From Paenisporosarcina sp. FSL H8-0542 (GTDB lineage Bacteria > Bacillota > Bacilli > Bacillales_A > Planococcaceae): 64,000 nucleotides of DNA. Positions 2,719-39,885 of the stretch are shown here, one piece after another (within the stretch, counting starts at the first letter, position 1; each line of letters begins with the position of its first letter). Position numbers and translations under genes: made by a program. The stretch is from the NCBI RefSeq assembly GCF_038632915.1, contig NZ_CP152050.1, positions 2,573,001 through 2,637,000 of the forward strand. The letters run 5' to 3'. The notes below the pieces were generated by a model. That model was given only the letters and a program-made list of their open reading frames with translations, was not told the DNA's origin and made no database searches.

Positions 2719-3498
2719 TCATAGGTTGGGCCTGGTTCCAATGACGACTGTAGCGTCAAGTTCGTCGTAATATGCCACCTGTGTTATTAGCCCGTTTTGA
2801 GCAAAAATCTCGACGGTCAACAGTGCCTGTCTCTCGCTAGTCTCAACCAGCAGATGACCGCCCGGCGCAAGCCAGAGTGTTGCCTCAGCAGCTACTCGCC
2901 GCTGGACGTCAAGCCCGTCCGCACCCCCGTCGAGTGCCACCCGCGCCTCATGTATGCGGGCCTCCTGGGGTAACAGCACGATCGCTTCGGTAGGGACGTA
3001 GGGTGCGTTTGCGACCAGGACGTTGACACGGCCCCGTAATGTGGCTGGCAGCGGCTCATAGAGGTCTCCTTCATACACGTGCCCTCCGACGGAAGTTACG
3101 TTTCGGCGGGCGCACCGCACCGCGGCTGGATCAATGTCAGCGGCGTACAACTCGATTCCTTCCATAGCTACGGCCAGCGCTAAACCCACCGCGCCTGTGC
3201 CGCAGCACAGGTCAACCACAATGGCGCCTTGTGTTACGAGAGCTGCTGCTTGGCGGACTAAAAACTCAGTGCGACGGCGGGGTACGAATACTCCCGGGTC
3301 CACCGCTATCCGGATACCGCAGAATTCAGCCCACCCTAAGACGTATTCAAGGGGCAAGCCGTTTATTCGTCGTTCCACCATGGTGGCAAATTCAGCCGGC
3401 GTCCTTGCCTCAGAGAAAAACAACCGTGCCTCATCTTCTGCGAATACACAACCGGCTGTCCGAAGCCTGGTTATTATACTTTTTGTTTCATCGTCCAT
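2719..3498 (-). CDS. PrmC/HemK-related protein-(glutamine-N5) methyltransferase, probable horizontal acquisition
   Basis: This is a class I SAM-dependent methyltransferase of the PrmC-related group. The SAM-binding motif is VVDLCCGTGAVGLAL, and the substrate-side motif reads NAPYVP instead of the NPPY of true PrmC, a variant known from a PrmC-like family of unknown substrate that is common in actinobacteria. GC content of the body is clearly higher than in all neighbours, with many GCC/GGC/CGG codons, which suggests transfer from a high-GC donor. The start is uncertain: ATG at 3498 gives 259 residues and fits family length, while an in-frame GTG at 3531 adds 11 residues; neither has a good ribosome binding site. 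It lies 115 bases upstream of rph on the same strand. Its substrate cannot be told from sequence. Confidence 0.8.
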   Translation of the reverse strand: MDDETKSIITRLRTAGCVFAEDEARLFFSEARTPAEFATMVERRINGLPLEYVLGWAEFCGIRIAVDPGVFVPRRRTEFLVRQAAALVTQGAIVVDLCCGTGAVGLALAVAMEGIELYAADIDPAAVRCARRNVTSVGGHVYEGDLYEPLPATLRGRVNVLVANAPYVPTEAIVLLPQEARIHEARVALDGGADGLDVQRRVAAEATLWLAPGGHLLVETSERQALLTVEIFAQNGLITQVAYYDELDATVVIGTRPNL

Positions 3499-3591
3499 AT
3501 AAAAATTAATTTGCTCTTCTATTAATATCACCTAATCTTGATAGCTTTTAGTATTATTTGTAATTCGTTAAAAATAGAAGAAATCCTTCTT

Positions 3592-3600
3592 GAACTAACC
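3592..3600 (-). repeat. Partial arm of the 3.6-5.6 kb cassette-like repeat
   Basis: GGTTAGTTC on the minus strand, followed by AAGAAGGAT, matches the outer edge of the element at 4412-4502 (GGTTAGTTCGAAAAGGAT). It marks the distal limit of the repeat array. The rest of 3601-3710 shows no convincing gene. Confidence 0.45.
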
Positions 3601-3710
3601 AAGCTTTTCATAATACCACTCCACTTTTTCGATTAGATGTTAGAAGAATTTATTCATGGTCTTTTAGCTCTGATGTAGATCTTTGAGGTGAGAACTTCAT
3701 TTCATCCATA

Positions 3711-3795
3711 AGAAAAAGCCACCTGTAAAGGCGGCAGCAAGTTCCAACTAAAGTACCCGTTAGTTGAAGAAGAAATTTTAAGTTAGTTCAATAAG
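3711..3795 (-). repeat. Cassette-like repeat element 1 with intrinsic terminator
   Basis: On the minus strand two copies of TTCTTnTTsAACTAAC stand in tandem (the first overlaps the stop codon of the DUF3953 gene), followed by GGGTACTTTAGTT and then a GC-rich hairpin (GCCGCC...GGTGGC) with a run of Ts. It shares the AACTAACGGGTnCTTTA core with elements at 4412-4502, 4865-4936 and 5511-5550, and like them sits directly after a small minus-strand gene. Confidence 0.7.
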
Positions 3796-4019
3796 AAACC
3801 CTGTATGGAAACAAAGAAAATAAATAAAGAAACAATAATGAACATATACCCTTCAAATCTCTTTCTGTCTTTCTGAAGTTCGAATAATCCTGTTACCAAC
3901 ATAAACGCACCTAAGAACAACATCATAAACGGCATCAACTCAAAGTTTCTACTTATTAAACTATAACTGGATAAAGCAATAACAATTATTCCTAATATAA
4001 TTCTTATTATTTTCATCAA
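3783..4019 (-). CDS. Small membrane protein, DUF3953 (YczI-like)
   Basis: A 78-residue, very hydrophobic protein with three predicted membrane segments at about residues 5-22, 29-47 and 56-76, separated by the charged linker ELQKDRKRFEG. It resembles the DUF3953/YczI family of Bacillus membrane proteins of unknown function (approximate length 80). A paralogue with the same layout (SRNFELMPF versus TRNFEFQAY, then LFLG..MLVTG, then FVSIQ) is encoded at 32344-32577. The stop codon lies inside the repeat element that follows, and the gene is the last of the small-gene array. Family assignment is by recognition of pattern; no biochemical role is known. Confidence 0.7.
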   Translation of the reverse strand: MMKIIRIILGIIVIALSSYSLISRNFELMPFMMLFLGAFMLVTGLFELQKDRKRFEGYMFIIVSLFIFFVSIQGFLLN

Positions 4020-4101
4020 TATAATCCTCTCAAAAATTATTTTATCTTATCATATAAAGTATTCATTTTGGTGGAATGAAGAGAACGGACGCTTACTAAT
4101 C

Positions 4102-4119
4102 CGCCCCGTTAGTTGGACA
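4102..4119 (-). repeat. Truncated copy of the cassette-like repeat (element 2)
   Basis: The minus strand reads CCAACTAACGGGGCGG, the core of the repeat without the TTTAGTT arm and hairpin. It lies just after the stop codon of the gene remnant at 4136-4369, the same gene-then-element order as in the neighbouring units. Confidence 0.5.
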
Positions 4120-4135
4120 ACAAATACTGTAATAT

Positions 4136-4369
4136 TCATTTAACTGAATTAGCCATTTTTAAAAAATCCTTAAGTGTATAGTTTTTCTTCTCTCCCTTGT
4201 GAGGAGGTATCATTAAACCGATGTCCACATTCTCTTCACTATCGTGCCACGAAATTACTTTAGCATCTCCTTGATCATCCCATTGAGCGTCTATTCCATT
4301 ACTTAACTTCACTGTTTCCTGAGCGGCAAACGTATCGATTGCTTTGGTGAAAAGGTTGGATACGTGTAA
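4136..4369 (-). pseudogene. 5'-truncated remnant of an unidentified gene
   Basis: The minus strand has an open frame of about 77 codons ending in TGA at 4136-4138. It has normal codon structure and encodes an acidic, soluble-looking tail (LFTKAIDTFAAQETVKLSNG, then IDAQWDDQGDAKVISW, ending KDFLKMANSVK). There is no start codon or ribosome binding site; the frame is blocked by a stop at 4370-4372, so this is the C-terminal part of a longer protein. I do not recognise the family. It lies between two copies of the repeat element, as do its neighbours. Confidence 0.55.
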
Positions 4370-4411
4370 TTAGAAAAATCCTTTCATTTAAATATTAGAG
4401 TACATCCTTTT

Positions 4412-4502
4412 CGAACTAACCTGTCCCTTTAGTTCAATAAGAAAAGGGCTGACAAACAGCCCGATGATCTTTAACTAAAACACCCGTTAGTCGAATAAGA
4501 AA
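4412..4502 (-). repeat. Cassette-like repeat element 3 (most complete copy)
   Basis: Read on the minus strand: ACTAACGGGTGTTTTAGTT, a terminator hairpin GGGCTG-tttgt-CAGCCC (4446-4462) with TTTTCTTATT, then AACTAAAGGGACAGGTTAGT. The two arms are inverted copies of each other (CTAAC...TTTAGTT against AACTAAA...GTTAG), so the whole unit is an imperfect palindrome of about 75-90 bases around a terminator. It lies directly downstream of the 4530-4742 gene. Confidence 0.7.
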
Positions 4503-4529
4503 TGAGGAATTATTCAAACACAATGCCTT

Positions 4530-4742
4530 TTATTTTTTACACTCAAAAGAATATTCACTTGTGAAATTATTATGGATTTCTAATATGACTTCTCCACCAA
4601 TTTCATAACAGCGAGTACTAGCTAAATTTATTTCTGAAGTATTGAAATAACTAGATGAAATCGTTAAAAAAGCGAATCCAAATAAAGCTAAAACTAAAAT
4701 CAATAACCCACCTGTAAAATGCCTATTTTTAAATACAGTCAT
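4530..4742 (-). CDS. Small single-pass membrane protein, unidentified
   Basis: A 70-residue protein with a basic N-terminus (MTVFKNRHFTGG), one strong hydrophobic segment at residues 10-30, and a polar extracytoplasmic tail with two cysteines (CYEIGG and SFECKK at the end), which could form a disulfide outside the cell. The start ATG at 4742 has a good site, AAGGGGTG, 8 bases upstream. I do not recognise a family. The gene is followed within 30 bases by repeat element 3, so it forms one gene-plus-element unit of the 3.6-5.6 kb array. Expression is plausible because start, ribosome binding site and terminator are intact. Confidence 0.6.
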   Translation of the reverse strand: MTVFKNRHFTGGLLILVLALFGFAFLTISSSYFNTSEINLASTRCYEIGGEVILEIHNNFTSEYSFECKK

Positions 4743-4864
4743 TTTCAGAACACCCCTTATTTAAATTGAACAAACTTTCCATTTACTTTAATACGTTTGA
4801 AACAAATATAAGTTACAAAAAATTTCCATATGAAATCAACAAAAGTCCATTTCTGCTTATTGGA

Positions 4865-4936
4865 GTACCTGCCCCTTTAGTTTAAAAAGAAAAAGGCTTT
4901 ACTCCTTATTGAAGTAAAGCATCCGTTAGTTGAAAA
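4865..4936 (-). repeat. Cassette-like repeat element 4 with terminator
   Basis: Minus strand: CAACTAACGGATGCTTTACTT, hairpin GCTTTAC (4914-4920) / GTAAAGC (4896-4902) followed by CTTTTTCTTTTT, then AAACTAAAGGGGCAGGTA. Arms and hairpin correspond to elements 3 and 5. It follows the broken lipoprotein gene by about 10 bases. Confidence 0.7.
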
Positions 4937-4946
4937 ACACAATCCC

Positions 4947-5375
4947 TTATTTCGCTTCCACAACAAAACTTGTATAGGGTTTTTCATCAATAGTTACATC
5001 AATTTTCCATAACCCTAATTTGTCAAATCCGAATTTCGCTCCATTCTGTTCCTTTTCAATATTTTTTTCATGAAGCTAGACAGATTCGCCATTTTCTTTA
5101 TGTGTAGCCGTCATTTTATATTTTTTCCCATTAAGTTCTTCGAGACTATTCAAGAAATAAACTGCATAAAGTCTTCCTTGTTTTGCTGGAAACTCAAGTT
5201 CATTGCTTTCTCCATTTACTTTAATAACACCAAATTCCCCTTCAGTTCCATGCAAAGTTAGATTATCGACATTGAATGCAGGACTTAGATTCCAATCTCC
5301 ATCATTATCTTTTTCTTCTGTACATCCTAAGAGTAATAAAACTAAAACAAGCAACAGAAAACTTATTCTCTTCAA
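4947..5375 (-). pseudogene. Broken small lipoprotein gene (in-frame amber stop)
   Basis: The first 99 codons encode a lipoprotein precursor: basic start, hydrophobic stretch and lipobox LLLGC, then an acidic mature domain (TEEKDNDGDW). Translation stops at TAG (5076-5078), but the same frame continues for 42 more codons (LHEKNIEKEQNG ... PYTSFVVEAK) to a TAA at 4947-4949, and repeat element 4 follows at the usual distance. The original protein was therefore about 142 residues. The start is also poor: the frame begins with TTG at 5375, while the AGGAGG site lies some 20 bases upstream and opens a different 7-codon frame. Two defects suggest a decayed gene, although a truncated lipoprotein could still be made. 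Confidence 0.65.
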
Positions 5376-5510
5376 TCGAATAATTGAAATGTCATTTCCT
5401 CCTTTTTTTCATCTGTTTATTCTTTAAACATTTGATAAAAATGCACATAGAAATATTCTTCAATTCAATCTAATCTCTTTATGTTACCTATTTCGGCGTC
5501 CTTCCAAATA

Positions 5511-5550
5511 TACCTGCTTATTGAAGTAAAGCACCCGTTAGTTGAATAAG
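5511..5550 (-). repeat. Short form of the cassette-like repeat (element 5)
   Basis: Minus strand: CTTATTCAACTAACGGGTGC, then TTTACTTCAATAAGCAGGTA. Compared with element 4 it lacks about 35 internal bases (right hairpin arm, T-run and AACTAAAGGG), joining CAATAAG directly to CAGGTA. This internal deletion shows the element is modular. Confidence 0.65.
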
Positions 5551-5702
5551 ACAGATTAATTTAACGGTCCATATATATCTATTTATTTTCTAGTGTAAGC
5601 ATTCATAATTGGACCAGATTGTGGAATAAGCGATATTTGATATTTAAAAATTGGATTTAAGGAATAGCGCTTTTTAATTAAAGTAGAATGGAAATTTAAA
5701 AA

Positions 5703-5739
5703 CCTAAACTCTTTGTTCAATATGAACAAGGAGTTTAGG
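5703..5739 (-). terminator. Strong hairpin, minus-strand terminator
   Basis: CCTAAACTC.TTGTTC pairs with GAACAA.GAGTTTAGG around a short AT loop, 17 near-perfect pairs; on the minus strand it is followed by TTTTTAAA. It probably stops transcripts leaving the efflux gene. Confidence 0.6.
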
Positions 5740-5866
5740 TTCAAAGATAAGAGTATGGCTTTTTGAGTAAGAGAGTTTTCTAGCTCCACATGGAAGCTAC
5801 TTCGAATGATCATCACAGGAACAATCTTGGCCTTTTATTGTTCCGAAGGCCATTGTGCTTTTCTAA

Positions 5867-7069
5867 TTAATTCGCTAAACTTTCTGCCAATTCGTTTTCT
5901 TTCCACATGACTGTAATACATAGGCCAAAGACCATAATGACAGCTGCGAATAGATAAGGATAGTGGATGTTTACGTCAAATAGTATTCCGGCCATGGCTG
6001 GCCCTACGATATTACCTAAGCTCGTATAGGTTGAATTCATTCCTGCAACAAATCCTTGCTCTTTCCCGCCAGCTTTTGATAAAAATGTCGTCACTGCCGG
6101 ACGAAGCAAGTCAAATGCGAGGAAGATGAAGCAAGTTACCACCAGTACTGCCAAGAAGCTAGAGACCAAGGTGGACGCCACCGCCAATATTGCACCTACA
6201 ATCAAACATAATTGGATCAGTTTCTTTTCTCCGAGTATATCTACCATTTTTCCAAACATAAATACTTGCACAACAACTCCAAAGATTGAGCTTATTGTAA
6301 TAATAGCTGCAAGGTCTTTAGGCGTGAAGCCGAATTTATGATTAGAAAATAGACTAAAAACAGTTTCATATGCTGATAAACCGAAAGCGAGTACAAATAC
6401 AATGATAAATGCAATAAAGTAAAGCGGATGAAGTGATCTTTTTAAATCGCCAATAAAGTTTGTTTGCTTTGTATTAGCAGAAATTTCCGAAAGCTGTTCC
6501 TTTGTTAGAGGCTCTTTTAAAATAAACATCGATGAAATGCATGCTAAAAAAGCAATTGCTGCCGCAAAGAAGAAAGGCAAGCGAACACCATATTCTGCAA
6601 TAAATCCACCTATACCAGGTCCTATAATAAAGCCAGTGCTAATGGCGGCAGAAATATAGCCCATTGCTTTTGCCCGTTCCTGAACTGATGTAATATCTGC
6701 AACATATGCAGTAACACCAGGCATAATAAAGGCTGCACTAATTCCCCCTAGAAACCTTGATATATAAAGAACCGATACGTTCGTGCCTACACCAAAGATA
6801 AGTTCTGAAACACCAAAAAGGAATAAGCCGAATATAATGATTTTCTTTCTACCGTAACGGTCAACCCATCGACCTGCGAATGGTGACAGAAGCAGTTGCG
6901 CTACCGCAAATACGGCAACAAGATAGCCCATCGTACTTCCTGATAAATCCATGATATTCATAAATGACGGCATAACGGGGATGATGAGTCCAATTCCTAG
7001 AAATGCAATGAATATATTGCTTAAAAGAATAATTAATACCATCTTTTGTTTTTTAATTGGTTTTTTCAT
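5867..7069 (-). CDS. MFS multidrug efflux transporter (Bmr/NorA type)
   Basis: A 400-residue, 12-helix major facilitator protein, probably a drug:proton antiporter of the plasma membrane. It follows Bmr/Blt of Bacillus nearly block for block: FIAFLGIGLIIPVMP in helix 1, motif A GRWVDRYGRKK at residues 66-76, LGGISAAFIMPGVTAYVADI, and the antiporter motif C AAISTGFIIGPGIGG near 140-154, then RPAVTTFLSKAGG..QGFVAGMNS in the C-terminal half. The start ATG at 7069 lies 26 bases after the tetR-like gene, so the two genes probably form one operon under autorepression. Likely substrates are amphipathic cations or fluoroquinolones by family analogy; the actual range cannot be read from the sequence. 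Confidence 0.88.
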   Translation of the reverse strand: MKKPIKKQKMVLIILLSNIFIAFLGIGLIIPVMPSFMNIMDLSGSTMGYLVAVFAVAQLLLSPFAGRWVDRYGRKKIIIFGLFLFGVSELIFGVGTNVSVLYISRFLGGISAAFIMPGVTAYVADITSVQERAKAMGYISAAISTGFIIGPGIGGFIAEYGVRLPFFFAAAIAFLACISSMFILKEPLTKEQLSEISANTKQTNFIGDLKRSLHPLYFIAFIIVFVLAFGLSAYETVFSLFSNHKFGFTPKDLAAIITISSIFGVVVQVFMFGKMVDILGEKKLIQLCLIVGAILAVASTLVSSFLAVLVVTCFIFLAFDLLRPAVTTFLSKAGGKEQGFVAGMNSTYTSLGNIVGPAMAGILFDVNIHYPYLFAAVIMVFGLCITVMWKENELAESLAN

Positions 7070-25433: not shown

Positions 25434-25672
25434 TCGGCTCCCTTTTCCTTTCCGTGGACGAACAGGCAAGCCTCCTTGGCCAACAGAATGTTGGTCACGA
25501 AGGCGTTTCCACAAAGTGGTGTTCTTAGCCTTCGTTCCATCGTTATCGATCCAGGGTCTTACCCACTGGAGTGTTAACGCAAGAGCGTGAATCGTGAGAC
25601 CCGCAGGTAATTGGTTTTAATACTTGAAGGCTCATGCGGAACAGGCTGCTAGCGCAAATGTAAGATAAACAA
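25434..25672. repeat. Dispersed intergenic repeat, long copy A
   Basis: Begins CGGCTCCC, contains TTTCCGTGGACGAACAGGCA, AGCCTCC, the hairpin CCAACAGAATGTTGG with GTCACGAAGG, and ends with ATGCGGAACAG..GCTAGCGCAAATGTA. The same blocks occur in the same order at 32801-33024 and in part at 60611-60697; a reversed end fragment is at 52370-52437. It is GC-richer than its surroundings and non-coding. Confidence 0.8.
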
Positions 25673-25696
25673 CAGTATAGTTTTAGAAAAAAATAA

Positions 25697-25733
25697 AGAA
25701 CCGTCCTTCCATTTCTGGAGTGACGGTTCTTTT
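25697..25733. terminator. Bidirectional hairpin terminator
   Basis: AAGAACCGTC..TCCA-tttc-TGGA..GACGGTTCTT with T-run on the plus side and a run of Ts on the minus side. Confidence 0.65.
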
Positions 25734-25945
25734 CACAAAGGGGATGGGAGAAATGTTCACGTTCAAACAAAGGGGTGTATGTTTGTGTGTGATTTATTTC
25801 ACATTTAAACGATATCATGACATAACGAGTAAATCAATCCTTCACAATCTTTTTCACAAAATCGTCATAAGGTAAGCGCTTCCAGTAAAATGCGAATCTA
25901 TTTCTACCATTTGAATGATATACCGATATAACTAAAATAAAAAAA

Positions 25946-39583: not shown

Positions 39584-39644
39584 TTTGTACTTGATTTTGG
39601 AGTTTCTTCTATATTATAATGACAATCAAAATACATGATAAATG

Positions 39645-39885
39645 CAAAGACGAAGAATAGTACTTTTGAATGGGTTGTCCAGAGAATCTGTATTTGGTGA
39701 AAACAGATCTTCCCATCATTAGGAATGGACTTCTGAGCATGGTTTACGAACCGGATTTCGGTGTAGTTCATCACGTACCTTCACGTTACGAAGTTAAAGA
39801 GGCCAAGATTTTTTGGCAATCTGGGTGGTACCACGGATTCACACATCATTCGTCCCTTTTTGAGGGAGAGTGATGTGTTTTTTTT
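39645..39885 (+). promoter_or_regulatory. Tryptophan T-box riboswitch controlling trpS
   Basis: The leader shows the T-box parts in order: stem I base with CAGAGAATCTG, distal GGTGAAAACAGAT, specifier loop GGAA-TGG-ACTTCTGAGC with the Trp codon TGG at 39726-39728, the antiterminator bulge CTGGGTGGTACCACGG (about 39828-39838 within AATCTGGGTGGTACCACGGA), and a terminator CACATCA..GTCCCT...AGGGA..TGATGTG followed by eight Ts (39843-39885). Uncharged tRNA-Trp should prevent termination and raise trpS expression. Confidence 0.92.

Follow-up and report, generated by a model that had tools for sequence, protein, structure and literature searches.

A run of small genes lies on the minus strand, between positions 5550 and about 3588, of a 64,000-nt stretch of the Paenisporosarcina sp. 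FSL H8-0542 chromosome (NZ_CP152050.1, positions 2,573,001 to 2,637,000; hereafter the window). The genes alternate with a palindromic element, and an initial annotation likened the whole to the gene cassettes of integrons. That the small same-strand genes carry a repeated palindrome is borne out: the core AACTAACGGGTGCTTTA is found with up to three mismatches at four places in the window (3749, 4476, 4915 and 5527), all on the minus strand, as against 0.15 expected by chance, and none of 100 shuffles reaches four. On this strand a left arm (consensus CTTnTTCAACTAAC) gives way to a G-rich spacer at seven boundaries, namely 5537/5536, 4925/4924, 4876/4875, 4486/4485, 4428/4427, 4108/4107 and 3759/3758. 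They delimit four gene units (U1 to U4), two hairpin units and a decayed last unit (sizes in Table 1), past which no further boundary matches the site pattern. An element with the core had been placed behind every small gene; a GGGTGC-type core indeed stands behind three of the four gene units, whereas unit 4427-4108 (gene 4369-4136) ends in a short site without hairpin, CCAACTAAC-GGGGCGG-ATTAGT, at 4108/4107. The fullest copy, taken at first for one element, is a composite, in which a terminator unit of 49 or 58 nt (4924-4876; 4485-4428) stands between a left arm and the start of the next unit. Likewise, the frame of the gene placed at 5375-4947 does run to 4947 when followed by eye, but an in-frame TAG interrupts it and the open reading frame (ORF) is 5375-5076. 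The copy at 5511-5550 was rightly seen as a reduced form, as a comparison by eye with the copy at position 1598495 of the same genome indicates. The U4 product (78 aa) matches DUF3953 (E 5e-10). Rfam models do not reach gathering score on any of the window elements; the region 3500-5900 has four weak matches outside them, which are taken as chance.

Such copies occur throughout the window's genome (G000), whose chromosome measures 3.63 Mb with a dnaA domain match at position 331. The 16-base core ACTAAMGGGTGYTTTA is present 118 times at no more than one mismatch, compared with twice for the reversed pattern. Within 498 kb of fetched stretches, 264 boundaries match the site patterns, while reversed and shuffled controls give 1 and 1-3 matches, respectively. 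The sites form 19 clusters, one of them a single site, and share one orientation per cluster except in two clusters with one opposite copy each. If the terminus lies opposite the origin (dnaA), 257 of the 264 sites are co-directional with replication. A simple site has the layout CTTnTTCAACTAAC-GGGGCAG-GTTAGTTGAAnAAG, and a compound site consists of a left arm, a unit GGGTGC-TTTAGTT...terminator...CTTATTGAACTAAC and then GGGGCAG-GTTAGTT. Among 141 junctions counted, 83 are simple and 58 compound, in addition to one tandem pair of hairpin units. The 229 site-to-site intervals mostly begin with GGG (176) and end with AACTAAC (191, an ending partly built into the search pattern). Sixty-three of them are 100 nt or shorter, with 60 measuring 48-61 nt, a size class into which the 49-nt terminator unit of the window falls. 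Because its ends are the same as those of a gene unit, the hairpin unit may be read as a gene-less cassette; judged by these ends, the mobile terminator that had been raised as an alternative would be partly right.

The larger intervals carry the cargo. There are 148 intervals of 250-2500 bp; 130 of them have their longest ORF in the sense direction and 17 in the antisense direction, and in one no ORF reaches 50 aa. This agrees with the expectation that copies follow small ORFs in the same orientation. Sense ORFs have a median length of 143.5 aa and stop at a median of 56.5 nt ahead of the next boundary. Their content is diverse: a scan of 109 of the 118 cassette ORFs of at least 80 aa (four of IS110 transposase length and five others were excluded) gives matches to 70 Pfam families, each with no more than four members. 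Models of GNAT acetyltransferases are the commonest matches and many others are DUFs. Two matches to Colicin_immun and one to SUKH_5 hint at immunity proteins among the cargo, and PADLOC models of nine families match one member each.

Units of this kind are exchanged within the genome, where homologous units occupy different arrays beside different neighbours. A copy of U1, 94.9% identical over unit positions 8-612 of 612, lies at G000:1598495-1599096, nearly 1 Mb from the window and in an array on the opposite replichore. A compound site stands behind the gene at 2462059 and a simple one behind its copy at 3472761, the two diverging after AACTAACGGGG; the unit pair 1724211/1599404 diverges after AACTAACGGG. 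Exchange is also seen between strains. A second genome of the same species (G061) is syntenic with G000 in blocks that are mostly 97-99.9% identical, and in five events (A, F, H, M and N; Table 1) unrelated cargo of unequal length lies between identical flanks. The downstream cargo keeps its spacer in events F and N, and the upstream cargo keeps its outer left arm in F and M, so the crossover falls in or next to AACTAACGGG; the recombining partners carry different spacers. Because the crossover falls at the first arm after the gene, the hairpin reads as a separate small unit and not as the tail of the preceding gene, as it would be in attC and as the gene-plus-palindrome units of the initial annotation would imply. 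Edges of syntenic blocks of at least 900 bp (46, less four made by IS110 elements) lie within 45 bp of a G000 boundary in 17 of 42 cases, against 8.2% expected (p = 1.2e-8), and in 20 of 42 when boundaries of either strain are counted. The predicted difference in cargo between strains, with breakpoints at the sites, is thereby found. Of 118 cassettes longer than 150 bp in the fetched G061 stretches, which omit the arrays near C1:1.636-1.649 Mb and those on C2, 68 are matched in the fetched G000 stretches and 50 have no counterpart there.

Relatives of the cargo extend to another genus. The G000 cassette 2522298-2522875 is 92.9% identical, over positions 5-578 of its 578, to an array locus of Psychrobacillus sp. 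OK032, whereas the dnaA regions of the two genomes are 75% identical, a contrast that marks a recent transfer. The U2 protein has a relative in an array locus of the same strain (L140; 68% over 50 residues), and U4 has weak relatives within arrays of G061 (L093; 42% over 79) and of Psychrobacillus vulpis (L154; 50% over 46).

Many soil bacteria related to the host carry a recombinase within such arrays. Tyrosine recombinases were sought by profile search in 13 genomes and six loci were then read, which revealed a short recombinase within the arrays of G003, G006 (two loci), G011, G012 and G030 (a copy cut at a contig end), antisense to the array in six of six. The protein is about 281 aa long, and with few exceptions among the loci read its gene runs antisense to the sites around it. 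Most loci from L104 to L132 share a conserved unit, AACTAAC/GGGTGCTTTAGTCAA...hairpin...(stop) recombinase (start) about 100 bp ...TTTTTACTAAC/GGnGCAG of the next cassette, in which the slash marks the boundary. This order of integrase, attachment-like region and cassettes reading away matches that of integrons, and the conserved region of about 100 bp upstream of the gene, mostly ending in ACTAAC, may be attI-like. The 54 full-length loci, in which some genes are represented twice, include 46 with a site upstream of the start codon, 29 with a core beyond the stop codon and 24 with both. A loose pattern gives 246 opposite-strand and 52 same-strand sites around these loci, and a stricter one 0-2 same-strand sites per locus (L134-L180). 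The recombinase unit is itself duplicated: a 1231-bp integrase unit stands, between unrelated flanks, in two different arrays of G061, and its two copies are 99.2% identical across 1273 bp, site sequence included. The copies begin AACTAAC/GGGTGC and AAGTAAC/GGGTGC, respectively, and both end AACTAAC/GGGGCAG; the spot directly upstream of the integrase is decayed (AATAACGGGTTAGG) and an additional stretch is included. A tyrosine recombinase had been expected at one end of larger arrays. It is tied to the arrays, but sits inside them as a cassette. In G000 the gene is present as fragments only, which makes the array of the window's genome one without an integrase, with remnants alone.

The recombinase and the sites also go together across genomes. 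In 250 family genomes, evenly drawn from a larger group, a genome was scored positive for a listed match of at least 76% identity, fragments included (G193 and G233 rest on 80% fragments). Among the matches listed, 39 of the 250 genomes have a close recombinase; at least 10 sites are present in 36 of these, with a median of 52 and a maximum of 257, and in 26 of the 211 others (Fisher p = 3e-23). No site at all is present in 100 of the 250. The recombinase is found in Psychrobacillus, Sporosarcina, Paenisporosarcina, Lysinibacillus, Solibacillus, Viridibacillus, Neobacillus, Bacillus and others. It matches 7 of 72,556 plasmid records, including a 266-kb plasmid of Sporosarcina psychrophila, on which it is the sole plus-strand gene of 28 annotated in the stretch and adjoins GNAT, NUDIX and mercury genes. 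Four records of a phage collection match at 33-35% identity only. More distant recombinases (57-65%) were tried as members of the group and dropped at L133, L155 and L156, which are without an array of the main site around them; the recombinase of L163 (57%) does show the array layout. A recombinase tree was set aside, as 7 of 13 inner forks were open and one Xer row was a wrong ORF.

Judged by its sequence, the recombinase is a simple Xer-like enzyme. With 225 and 223 bits it passes the cut-off (220) of one model only, the broad NF040815; on the IntI profile TIGR02249, whose cut-off is 265, it scores 93 and 97 bits. Residues 51-278 align with the XerC-like chain 4a8e with short gaps only, and hence the I2 insertion of about 20 residues is not seen in the sequence. 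In a ten-row alignment (A4), the expected active-site residues R, K, H, H and Y, whose roles we take to be the usual ones, are invariant; the second arginine is a lysine in one Neobacillus copy (L151). I2, located in the catalytic domain, is described in a passage of PMC4792948 as not identified elsewhere, and a section of PMC8138268 likewise describes a specific insertion for an integron-like subgroup.

The best explanation of these findings, which we hold at a probability of roughly 0.85, is that they represent site-specific cassette arrays whose cassettes are joined and cut by the arrays' own Xer-like recombinase, and that the window contains the tail of one such host array. The cassette reading of the initial annotation is thus supported. 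Sites, arrays, unit boundaries, swaps, duplicated units and the place of the recombinase, together with its association with the sites, are all visible at the level of sequence, and the recombinase would be the catalyst that acts on these sites. Typically, a cassette comprises a 5′ spacer and arm (GGGGCAG-GTTAGTTnAAnAAG or GGGTGC-TTTAGTTnAA...), one cargo gene and a 3′ arm (CTTnTTCAACTAAC). At the junction of two cassettes, inverted arms of about 14 bp stand on either side of a spacer of 6-7 nt, as they do in the core site of a tyrosine recombinase. The terminator hairpins are small units with the same ends, which would insulate neighboring genes. From its own antisense unit, the enzyme of about 281 aa would join and cut cassettes at or beside AACTAAC/GGG, probably through circular cassette intermediates, and cassettes would in this way be exchanged inside the genome, between strains and between genera. 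The integrase is divergent from the cassettes, the next of which starts where the putative attI-like upstream region ends (mostly ACTAAC). The gene-sense strand is predicted to be cleaved at AA^C, with both strand and base tentative; this would match the cleavage point of the integron R-box, given as 5′-AAC-3′ in a passage of PMC4792948, with the genes facing the other way. Integron insertion is outlined in a section of PMC8946536 as the exchange of one strand, resolved by replication, with folding favored on the lagging-strand template. Here that template would be the gene-sense strand at 257 of the 264 sites, but a bias of this kind could follow from gene direction alone.

Several observations weigh against the cassette-array reading. 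The window's own locus has neither gained nor lost units between the two strains, which are 99.7% identical over 15.4 kb in one alignment, so that the exchange foreseen there is not found. Away from the G000 sites lie 25 of the 42 strain edges, being indels elsewhere or edges without resolution, and homologous recombination among many similar sites could account for part of the swaps. The longest ORF is antisense in 17 of the 148 intervals. A test of folded, attC-like recognition gave no covariation between left and right arms: across six pairings p is 0.24-0.98 at the two variable positions, save for the own 5′ against the own 3′ arm of gene cassettes, whose p = 0.041 is not taken as support. 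Of 67 rows found as full elements, 54 are in alignments A1 and A2 and 50 in A3. Around the recombinase, a pattern-matching upstream site is absent from 8 of 54 loci and a downstream core from 25 of 54, and some copies, such as those of G006 and G012, are broken. Finally, the 26 genomes that hold at least 10 sites without a listed close recombinase, the window's genome included, count in the same direction.

A true integron, in which an IntI-family integrase acts on attC sites folded from single strands, is an improbable account, although it survives best among the alternatives. Four compound elements folded as single strands give z of -5.3 to -8.2, and in three of the four the minimum fold is attC-like, in that the outer arms pair with each other and enclose an inner stem and a spacer that stays unpaired. 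The divergent integrase and the putative lagging-strand position of the gene-sense strand would also fit. Nevertheless, the IntI score is far below its cut-off, the insertion of about 20 residues is absent relative to Xer-type proteins, and the integrase is bounded by sites like a cassette. Moreover, the 83 simple junctions of 141 have no second arms or hairpin, and the arms do not covary. The orientation, the strain swaps and the linked recombinase uphold the integron-cassette logic proposed initially, but not membership in the integrons proper. A slightly poorer prospect is that the elements are dispersed palindromic terminators akin to repetitive extragenic palindromes (REP) or miniature inverted-repeat transposable elements (MITE), serving as homology for RecA, with swaps as ordinary homologous exchange. 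The copies are many and stand just behind genes, and the off-site strain edges and the arms without covariation are what this would predict. It is countered by the precision of unit ends across genera (positions 5-578 of 578), by a recombinase that sits in the arrays within boundaries of its own and whose presence follows the number of sites, and by swaps that join sites with different spacers and change in or next to AACTAACGGG. It is quite unlikely that host XerC/XerD mobilize the units with the array recombinase as a passenger, as for the dif-flanked (pdif) modules. The two-arm, short-spacer sites resemble Xer core sites in layout and the 26 of 211 genomes with sites would be explained, yet the recombinase keeps a conserved antisense place and tracks the arrays, and Xer-scoring recombinases are present in 13 of 13 genomes searched, whereas 100 of 250 genomes are siteless. 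Three tandem tyrosine recombinases (435, 380 and 325 aa) beside the 2460-2487 kb array, the first candidate, end about 3.5 kb from the nearest site, but are very improbable movers of the units and were dropped because relatives rich in sites lack the trio (in 60 related genomes, several of them site-rich, the best match to its first protein is distant, at E 2e-19 and about 30% identity) and no site borders it.

Compared with known systems, the cassette arrays come closest to integrons. Both have one-orientation arrays of single-gene cassettes parted by one kind of site, a divergent tyrosine integrase, a single conserved site at which unrelated cargo is gained, lost or exchanged, some arrays that lack an integrase, both chromosomal and plasmid forms, and an IS110-type insertion sequence aimed at the recombination sites. 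Here, in contrast, the recombinase is Xer-like, without an IntI score or the I2 insertion. The integrase does not stand outside the cassettes beside attI, being a 1231-bp unit that has a site at either end and occurs in duplicate. The sites have two sequence-conserved arms with the crossover at the first arm after the gene, terminators are separate small units, and many arrays share one chromosome in Bacillales hosts. The system thus works like an integron but departs from one on three counts: the IntI profile, I2 and an integrase outside the cassettes. The pdif modules of Acinetobacter plasmids are gene units bounded by two-arm Xer-type sites, a layout that is shared, but the present arrays have their own recombinase and are mostly chromosomal. 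REP, bacterial interspersed mosaic elements (BIME) and MITE-like repeats are likewise numerous dispersed palindromes behind genes; those described here differ in bounding precisely exchanged gene units with one orientation per cluster. Recombinase-in-trio (RIT) elements, which hold three tandem recombinases between inverted repeats, resemble the tandem trio near one array, although in relatives such a trio has no link to arrays.

We lean, by a small degree, toward a broader view: that Bacillales hold a second, independently arisen cassette-shuffling system, with an I2-less Xer-like recombinase that travels as a cassette, up to some 250 sites per genome and mobile small terminator units that insulate transcription. 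Since the recombinase would itself be a travelling cassette, any array could become a platform. The system may be a convergent solution, or may be similar to the ancestor, acting on duplex DNA, that has been proposed for integron integrases. On the main reading alone, a cassette system with up to 257 sites in one genome would bring integron-type gene shuffling to Gram-positive bacteria, where true integrons are almost absent, and would account for the many small accessory genes of the host genera. Such a system would also open to test the long-standing question whether an integron-like life needs single-strand attC recombination and I2 or can run on ordinary Xer-type chemistry, and might serve as a gene-capture tool for Gram-positive hosts. 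Complete integrons are stated in a section of PMC9024848 to be nearly absent from Firmicutes, with one complete case (Limnochorda pilosa) and a few integrase-less clusters. Searches of open-access PMC papers, a set that includes neither subscription papers nor preprints, brought up no description of the site, or of cassette arrays in these genera, among titles and abstract openings.

An IS110-family element of 1.79 kb is inserted at AACTAACGGGGCAG^GTTAGTT (one-base variants included) in seven of seven exact-tag G000 copies, which are mutually 99.5-99.9% identical. The junction, at no more than one mismatch, recurs at L137, L139, L147, L160, L162, L169 and L176, in several genera; the L139 element was checked as the G000 element (89%), the other six loci being placed by the junction sequence alone. 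IS110 copies that first appeared as cassette boundaries (GGGGCAG/CATTCC) were recognized as insertions. IS1111-type elements targeting attC sites are reported in part of PMC11187229. This IS1111-attC group and the present element have in common an IS110 kind of transposase and insertion at one fixed point of a cassette recombination site, but the element described here targets AACTAACGGGGCAG^GTTAGTT.

Table 1. Units of the window array (window positions), IS110 copies in G000 (G000 positions) and sizes of the strain swaps
Feature	Position	Strand	Remarks
Left arm CTTATTCAACTAAC	5537..5550	-	closes the unit upstream of the first cassette in the window array
Gene cassette U1, 612 bp, from GGGTGCTTTACTTCAATAAG to CAACTAAC	4925..5536	-	ORF 5375-5076, 99 aa, then in-frame TAG
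Gene-less terminator unit, 49 nt, type ACTTCAATAAGGAGTAAAGCC	4876..4924	-	starts GGATGC, ends AACTAAA
Gene cassette U2, 390 bp	4486..4875	-	ORF 4742-4530, 70 aa
Terminator unit, 58 nt, type TTAGTTAAAGATCATCGGGCTG	4428..4485	-	
Gene cassette U3, 320 bp	4108..4427	-	ORF 4312-4136, 58 aa (initial annotation: 4369-4136)
Gene cassette U4, 349 bp, behind simple site (GGGGCGG spacer)	3759..4107	-	ORF 4019-3783, 78 aa
Last array unit, starts GGGTACTTTAGTTGG, terminator-like hairpin	3587..3758	-	decayed arm GGTTAGTTCAAGAAGG at far end (placed by eye)
IS110 copies, G000	1034222, 1601081, 1711484, 2134872, 2158000, 2466003, 3473179		L032, L034, L038, L043, L044, L045, L064
Strain swap, event A			648 vs 765 bp
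Strain swap, event F			511 vs 4136 bp
Strain swap, event H			1684 vs 997 bp
Strain swap, event M			659 vs 1561 bp
Strain swap, event N			989 vs 38 bp

Other features were noted near the arrays or elsewhere in the window. The tandem trio (L062:14073-17419; G000:2454073-2457419) consists of overlapping genes near a phage-type integrase and, by eye, an apparent tRNA gene. On the plasmid pSP10-266k, merA and merR lie within the same minus-strand gene run as the recombinase (L182:6653-8738). A possible sister system consists of recombinases of 62-64% identity flanked by TTCAACAATC sites (L156:4924-5947, L155:4926, window 5603 and G000:1787088); the palindrome TTCAACAATC-nGGCCn-GATTGTTGAA occurs at most 19 times per genome in 121 family genomes. 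Directly behind the array end, at 2719-3531, is a gene that we take from its translation to be methyltransferase-like; its G+C content is 56%, compared with 38.7% for the whole window and 31.9% for the array, and it is perhaps a separate acquisition. Farther along the window, positions 25480-25802 and 39638-39860 hold an RsaE/RoxS small RNA adjoining a Bacillaceae-1 RNA on the minus strand, as well as a T-box leader.

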